Source: Bacteroidales bacterium
GTDB lineage: Bacteria; Bacteroidota; Bacteroidia; Bacteroidales; F082
Reading direction: 5' to 3'
NCBI GenBank assembly: GCA_017460915.1
Contig: JAFUAA010000020.1
Location: forward strand, 1 to 35,616
DNA: 35,616 nucleotides
Below are positions 34,987 to 35,616 of the stretch, piece after piece. Under the pieces are notes generated by a model. That model ran no database searches. It was not told the origin of the DNA and was given only the letters and a program-made list of their open reading frames with translations. Numbering within the stretch: the stretch's first letter is position 1; the number at the start of each line of letters is the position of its first letter. The position numbers were made by a program, and so were the translations under genes.

Positions 34987-35595
34987 ATGGAGCTAAAACG
35001 CTATAAACTCTCTGATGTTGCTAAAGTTGAAATTAGCAGCGTTGACAAGAAGACCAAAGACGGTGAAACGCAAGTAAGGTTGTGCAACTTTACTGACGTA
35101 TATCATAACTGGGCTATTACATCGAATATAGCAGATACTTTTATGGAAGCATCTGCAAACTCAAATGAGATAGAAAAGTTCACCATCAAGAAAGGACAAG
35201 TAGCATTTACTAAGGATAGTGAAACGAGGGATGACATAGGCATCCCCACCTATATAGCCGATGATTTCGATGGTGTAATTTTAGGCTATCACTGCGCCTT
35301 GATTACTCCTGACGAAACAAAACTTTGTGGAAAGTATCTCAATGCTTTTATGCACTCAGCCTATATACAGAGATACTTTGAACTGAATGCCACTGGTAGC
35401 GGTATGAGATATACACTTTCGCTTGACACACTTGAAAATATGCCGCTATTGCTTCCGTTGTTAGAGGAACAAAAGCATATTGGCGAAATCTTCTCATCAT
35501 TAGACAAGAAGATTTCCATTAATCGTGCGATAAATCAGAATTTAGCGACACCTGACCGTTCATCAGAAGCGGCAGGAGTCCGTCGCGTTGCTTAG
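34987..35595 (+). CDS. hsdS: Type I specificity subunit, truncated to one target-recognition domain
   Basis: 202 residues; full HsdS is about 380-450. Residues 1-155 form one target-recognition domain, ending in LENMPLLLPLLEEQKHIGEIFSSLD, the first central conserved helix. After NRAINQNL the family sequence stops and 16 unrelated residues (ATPDRSSEAAGVRRVA) lead to a TAG stop. Read on the other strand, the same DNA encodes the C-terminal end of another HsdS (35519-35616). This looks like one state of an inverting hsdS locus. A half-size HsdS can still dimerise to form an active complex, so function may not be lost. Confidence 0.85.
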   Translation: MELKRYKLSDVAKVEISSVDKKTKDGETQVRLCNFTDVYHNWAITSNIADTFMEASANSNEIEKFTIKKGQVAFTKDSETRDDIGIPTYIADDFDGVILGYHCALITPDETKLCGKYLNAFMHSAYIQRYFELNATGSGMRYTLSLDTLENMPLLLPLLEEQKHIGEIFSSLDKKISINRAINQNLATPDRSSEAAGVRRVA

Positions 35596-35616
35596 TCAGA
35601 TTTGAGATTTCCTCTT
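35519..35616 (-). CDS. C-terminal end of a second, opposite-strand HsdS (cut by window edge)
   Basis: Minus-strand reading from the window edge to TAA at 35519-35521 gives 31 residues, with EEISNLTKQRDGLLPLLMNG as the first 20 and then QVSLNSDLSHD. The stretch LTKQRDGLLPLLMNGQ is the typical C-terminal coiled-coil end of Bacteroidetes HsdS proteins. The remainder lies right of the window. It shares 35519-35595 with the + strand hsdS frame, which is the expected signature of a recombination junction. Confidence 0.75.
   Translation of the reverse strand, partial: EEISNLTKQRDGLLPLLMNGQVSLNSDLSHD

Follow-up and report, generated by a model that had tools for sequence, protein, structure and literature searches.

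A reversed HsdS end at a contig boundary in a Bacteroidales draft genome: a probable phase of an invertible type I restriction-modification locus

The right end of the DNA analysed here raises the question of why an hsdS frame should break off in its middle and meet, on the opposite strand, the C-terminal end of an HsdS protein. The window, i.e., the whole stretch of 35,616 nucleotides, is the entire contig C62 (JAFUAA010000020.1) of a Bacteroidales bacterium draft genome (GCA_017460915.1; 79 contigs, 2.98 Mb, completeness 95.7%). The two coding ends meet at a 16-bp element, GATAAATCAGAATTTA (35529..35544, + strand), which includes a 14-bp core, TAAATCAGAATTTA (35531-35544), and which is the only such site in the window, the contig ending at 35616, 72 bp further on. 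Judging from sequence comparison, the window very probably captures an invertible type I restriction-modification locus in one of its phases. The partner site, the recombinase, active switching in this organism and an effect on methylation are what we infer, switching among them because the partner site and the recombinase are missing from the assembly.

The + strand carries the 5′ half of hsdS (34987..35595, 202 residues), with the first target-recognition domain and the central helix. Its match to Pfam Methylase_S (residues 5-186, E 5e-12) is closed by NRAINQNL, exactly where a sequence-only reading of this DNA had placed the end of the family match. Past the site, the frame closes after a 16-residue tail, ATPDRSSEAAGVRRVA, and in this orientation only the first target-recognition domain is in frame. 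The minus strand, from about 35614 down to 35519, encodes EEISNLTKQRDGLLPLLMNGQVSLNSDLSHD followed by a stop codon, a typical HsdS C-terminus; the feature as a whole (35519..35616, minus strand, open at the contig end) is LTKQRDGLLPLLMNGQVSLNSDLSHD, the reversed C-terminal end of an HsdS 3′ half. This end is not a chance frame, since it matches the HsdS C-termini of relatives both in DNA (ten rows, 86-94% identical over 43-53 bp, representing nine contigs, as L141 and L147 are the same one) and in protein (E down to 1e-12 among the best 40 rows). The sequence-only reading had described a head-on junction of two hsdS genes; the minus-strand HsdS end was indeed there, but what is seen is one flipped 3′ half and no whole second gene.

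The opposite orientation was found in the nearest relative, an uncultured Prevotellaceae metagenome-assembled genome (L071). One gapped alignment with it, 5,553 columns long and 88.4% identical, covers window positions 30001-35545 and ends one base past the site. The genes hsdR (30062..33337, + strand, 1091 residues, restriction subunit; Pfam HSDR_N, SWI2_SNF2, ResIII and T1R_D3-like) and hsdM (33345..34985, + strand, 546 residues, modification subunit; Pfam N6_Mtase, 1e-61) lie side by side with the hsdS frame at the right end of the contig, each with the expected domains, and their products are 95 and 98% identical, respectively, to those of L071; across many Bacteroidales records, hsdM relatives show 81-98% identity in the best segment. 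The first halves of the two hsdS genes are clear counterparts. In L071 the frame runs on from the site as INQNL-EALAKQLYDYWF, the normal start of an HsdS second half (direct orientation), up to the contig end 38 bp past the site, whereas the window continues into the reversed C-terminus. Both orientations are thus observed, between related genomes and not within one strain.

The wider comparison covered the best 80 named loci of 534 encoding a relative in a scan of the genome collection, plus other relatives. These are not independent samples: L058/L122 and L141/L147 are pairs of records of one contig each, the first pair being counted twice in the 83-record set (also among its records with at least two sites), L160 and L161 are two versions of one record, and four Lactococcus cremoris plasmids are near copies; moreover, the site pattern used in the 81-locus, 83-record and 103-locus counts was derived from many of the loci themselves. 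In the relatives, the site lies both in the central linker of hsdS and, in reverse, at the C-terminus of the gene. One 14-bp sequence thus serves as linker or as C-terminal tail, depending on the strand that is read; in the locus proposed for the window, it encodes INQNL in the linker and LNSDLS at the C-terminus. A degenerate form of the site occurred 91 times downstream of hsdM (497,346 bases) and never upstream of it (815,113 bases) in 81 loci. A + site followed hsdM in 41 of 83 records; the first one was direct in 20, inverted in 13 and unclassified in 8, these labels being assigned by short motif rules and one of the unclassified sites (L106) resembling a chance match. Where a 5′ half met a reversed C-terminus, a stop codon came within 23 codons in 21 of 23 cases, with one frame running 41 codons and one leaving its contig. 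The hsdS loci with the site belong to Bacteroidales, Bacillota and Ureaplasma, and a frequent arrangement is four sites in alternating orientation around two 3′ halves and an Xer-type recombinase of about 329 residues. Beyond 16 bp, the flanks are not shared between storage and expression positions, which indicates that the element is short. As a separate observation, a recurrent non-HsdS flank, approximately FLSFSYIPINQNL in the frame of the site, precedes the storage sites of L062, L065, L069, L132 and L153.

The middle triplet of the site varies between loci (CAG, CGG, CGC, GAT, CAT, CAA) and was uniform within the locus in all 26 of the 83 records with at least two sites, against a mean of 3.0 and a maximum of 11 in 10,000 shuffles. 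With a wider pattern applied to 103 loci, the middle bases agreed in 40 of the 42 loci that had at least two sites; the 18 loci that came from other searches contributed nine of these, eight being uniform. One exception is true, namely L155, which has two site classes, each of direct repeats, and the other (L077) comes from one extra match in another stretch. Outside the hsdS side, the wider pattern matched 13 times in 970,732 bases, which is the chance level.

This matching of middle bases within loci also bears on the idea that homologous exchange between hsdS copies, and not site-specific recombination, rearranged the gene. Pneumococcal inversions on long repeats do persist without the locus recombinase, according to the available text of PMC6620402, and some site pairs are embedded in inverted repeats of greater length (37 bp in L153, 34 bp in L156 and 78 bp in L089). 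However, all exact inverted repeats of at least 14 bases near the recombinase of L082 are site pairs of 14-15 bp, and all but one of those in L154 are site pairs of 14-16 bp, and we regard homologous exchange as extremely improbable.

A more complete example of the putative invertible arrangement comes from the same genus as the window (L044; HsdM 58-59% identical). Here, hsdR, hsdM and a full hsdS are followed by a second 5′ half on the opposite strand, a gene that we take to be DUF1016-like (our own label, given without a family search), a recombinase and a second 3′ half, with sites in the order + - + -. The recombinase scores above the cut-off for NCBIfam recomb_XerA_Arch, and proteins more than 50% identical to it are encoded at 45 loci, L044 included, which by record titles belong to Bacteroidales, Bacillota, Ureaplasma and plasmids of lactic acid bacteria. 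An identical 14-mer of the form TAAA-N5-ATTTA occurs in both orientations in 37 of these 45 loci, 26 of them arranged + - + -, and of the 29 loci in the 103-locus set that have both sites and recombinase, 24 have the recombinase enclosed by the outermost sites. A junction of the window's kind occurs in the four-site locus L147, whose reverse-strand 5′ half is a counterpart (67%) of the window's 5′ half and meets a reversed C-terminus at the site; a recombinase (62%) adjoins it.

The inversion itself can be followed in Lactococcus. A 663-bp block (6280-6942 in both) is 100% identical but inverted between the closed, recombinase-bearing plasmids of L. cremoris strains JM2 (L162) and JM1 (L164), and the ends of this block are the 15-bp site TAAATCATCATTTAG and its reverse complement; in a third plasmid (L163), the two 3′ halves are exchanged relative to L162. 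These plasmids show the inversion reaction in a homologous system, not in the organism of the window. Taken with the opposite orientation in L071 and the conserved paired sites, this exact natural inversion gives good comparative support to the inversion-based specificity switching proposed in the sequence-only reading, which was right in kind as to mechanism but not in the agents that it named.

Those agents were two tandem tyrosine recombinases encoded upstream of hsdR (27288-29486). That they act as the invertases is highly improbable, even though they belong to the proper enzyme family and lie about 6 kb from the site, and though distant relatives of both (38% over 42 residues; 33%) are encoded beyond the hsdS cluster of L147. 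In the stretches of 82 other records, only five matches to the first (Int1) and four to the second (Int2) were found, at 22-34% identity; the block shared with L071 begins at 30001, after both genes; and many relatives carry a different recombinase in or beside the hsdS cluster. In addition, Int2 has an arm DNA-binding domain, a feature typical of element integrases. As an observation in its own right, the two recombinase genes and a BRO/RhuM-like gene just upstream of hsdR occupy 27288-29913, outside the L071-shared block, and are perhaps the edge of a mobile island. The two recombinases more likely belong to a mobile element next to the cluster.

The position of the junction, 72 bp from a contig end and with no partner sequence found in the assembly, also suggested that it might be an assembly artefact, in which the 5′ half of hsdS was joined to the wrong strand via a short repeat. 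However, a like junction (5′ half, site, reversed C-terminus and a similar tail) lies well inside contigs of L065, L068, L130, L132 and L139, of which L068 is a Bacteroides cutis isolate and L132 a Leyella lascolaii isolate, and a mixed population with both continuations would by itself produce a contig break; an artefact is therefore very unlikely. Contig ends just past the site are a recurrent feature: in 41 of 81 loci the contig breaks off less than 10 kb downstream of hsdM, 18 of the 41 contain a site, and 17 of the 41 cut contigs end 0-126 bp past a site, compared with a background of 2.5% in uncut loci (binomial P 4e-17 with a 150-bp limit). Such ends would result from repeated 3′ halves, from mixed orientations or from both. 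Whether contigs tend to end downstream of hsdM in general was considered as well, and this broader effect was set aside as weak (28 of 81 within 3 kb downstream versus 20 of 81 in hsdR or at most 3 kb before it); only the tie to the site is strong.

Several results weigh against an active switch in the organism of the window. No second exact copy of the 14-mer was found in its own assembly, where two places in contig C21 have one mismatch; no other HsdS 3′ half of the same kind was found there; and no recombinase of this type was detected at E 1e-90, the best match being 27% identical. At the same threshold, 4 of the 295 genomes from the order, and 5 of the 99 from the genus, had the recombinase. 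The DNA of L071, at just 88% identity, marks it as a different strain from that of the window. Among the 45 recombinase loci, eight have no inverted pair (L155 with direct pairs; L157-L161, L168 and L171 with none by the pattern), and five of 19 uncut paired-site loci (L065, L068, L076, L084 and L087) have no recombinase within 10 kb, which makes a fixed or degenerate locus possible. As a separate observation, the assembly of the window's organism contains a second type I cluster (C19, about 48660-51852; L011), in which the HsdM similarity is in separate pieces and a stop codon lies inside one HsdS match.

These absences fit a fixed remnant, i.e., a once invertible locus whose hsdS was left truncated after one inversion and whose recombinase was lost; the recombinase-free paired-site relatives point the same way. 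We nevertheless consider it rather improbable, because hsdR, hsdM and the 5′ half of hsdS are still open frames and because the contig breaks just past the site, like 16 other records, an indication that the sequence goes on in more than one way in the sample or that its 3′ end is repeated.

For an invertible locus, the following mechanism can be proposed. The 14-16-bp site in the central linker, together with its reversed copy at the C-terminus, would bracket the whole 3′ half with the second target-recognition domain, and an Xer-type tyrosine recombinase, whose gene probably lies among the cassettes past the contig end, would invert 3′ halves bounded by opposed sites. One state would have a full hsdS after hsdM; in that of the window, the 3′ half would be reversed, the expressed frame would end 16 codons past the site, and the flipped half would either be silent or continue a second 5′ half encoded on the opposite strand. 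The system in this state may be either off or active through a half-HsdS that would pair with itself to read a palindromic target. Such self-pairing is familiar from studies of truncated HsdS proteins. A truncated HsdS with altered specificity has been reported for NgoAV (PMC7394358, available text).

Some recombinase relatives appear in other settings. At L155 (5164-6991), a relative (62%) accompanies another HsdM family (27%) and direct-repeat sites with the middles TGAT and TGAG, and this system may work by excision rather than inversion. Relatives in L157, L158 and L159 (60%) stand beside another HsdM family (26-28%) without paired 14-bp sites and likely use another site or mode. The Methanosphaera plasmid pNP174 (L160, 7001-7999) carries a 53% relative beside DUF2207 genes, on an archaeal plasmid stretch that lacks an annotated hsdS and paired sites, although short inverted repeats (14 and 16 bp) lie nearby at 8033-8904; this recombinase may switch something else.

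On balance, we lean towards the view that a single mobile hsdS-shuffling module, consisting of an approximately 329-residue XerA-like recombinase and the 14-bp site TAAAY-N4-ATTTA, is spread over Bacteroidales, Bacillota and Ureaplasma, with the middle bases as a private crossover address of each locus. Such an address, if real, would stop several loci of this kind in one genome or community from recombining together. The switch would probably let cells change which DNA is cut and methylated, and would allow a clonal population to contain cells that differ in their restriction and methylation targets. The site also provides an easy way to recognise such loci from sequence, even where the repeats are very short: the criterion of a REBASE survey, identical inverted fragments of 20 bp (PMC7394358, available text), exceeds many site pairs in the relatives' loci. 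Moreover, metagenome contigs often end just past sites, and draft genomes therefore probably under-report these loci.

The type of locus is known, and the 14-bp site with its locus-private middle may be new. No description of TAAAY-N4-ATTTA was found in the literature searched, which left subscription papers largely outside; only one of the searches asked for the site letters, as six 14-mers, and it gave one unrelated match, and the available text of Mycoplasma hsdS papers, PMC11062135 included, yielded no matching site. As far as the available parts of the sources go, invertible hsdS genes have been reported in B. fragilis (PMC3090145), Prevotella intermedia (PMC5608340), pneumococcus (PMC4948785, PMC7096588, PMC6620402), gut communities (PMC11892184) and Lactococcus (PMC6458302), and the following comparisons draw on the same parts. 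In the cod/SpnIII locus of Streptococcus pneumoniae, a 15-bp inverted repeat and the locus tyrosine recombinase PsrA/CreX swap the 3′ part of hsdS (PMC4948785, PMC7096588), much as proposed here; a site shared with PsrA/CreX was rejected, since the pneumococcal core is ATTATGGGAA, preceded by CTCTT (PMC6620402), and that of the window TAAATCAGAATTTA. Prevotella intermedia ATCC 25611 resembles the window in having a 2,371 bp hsdS inversion, mixed arrangements and short hsdS pieces in a type I system, but frameshifts are also reported there, and neither a recombinase nor a site is named in the text available (PMC5608340). The B. fragilis hsdS shufflon (BF1839-1842 in NCTC 9343, with a counterpart in 638R) is likewise a Bacteroidales type I restriction-modification locus in which inverted repeats rearrange target-recognition domains beside an adjacent tyrosine integrase; its one quoted repeat, however, is 38 bp long and lacks the window's site, and eight specificities are reported (PMC3090145). 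A further known system is the type I restriction-modification shufflon of the Lactococcus megaplasmids pMPJM1 and pMPJM2 (PMC6458302), which, going by strain names, would be the JM1 and JM2 plasmids described above: these records share with the module a homologous recombinase (58.5%) and a TAAAT-N4-ATTTA site, and they differ in the middle bases, in being plasmid-borne and in having hsdR at the other end of the locus.
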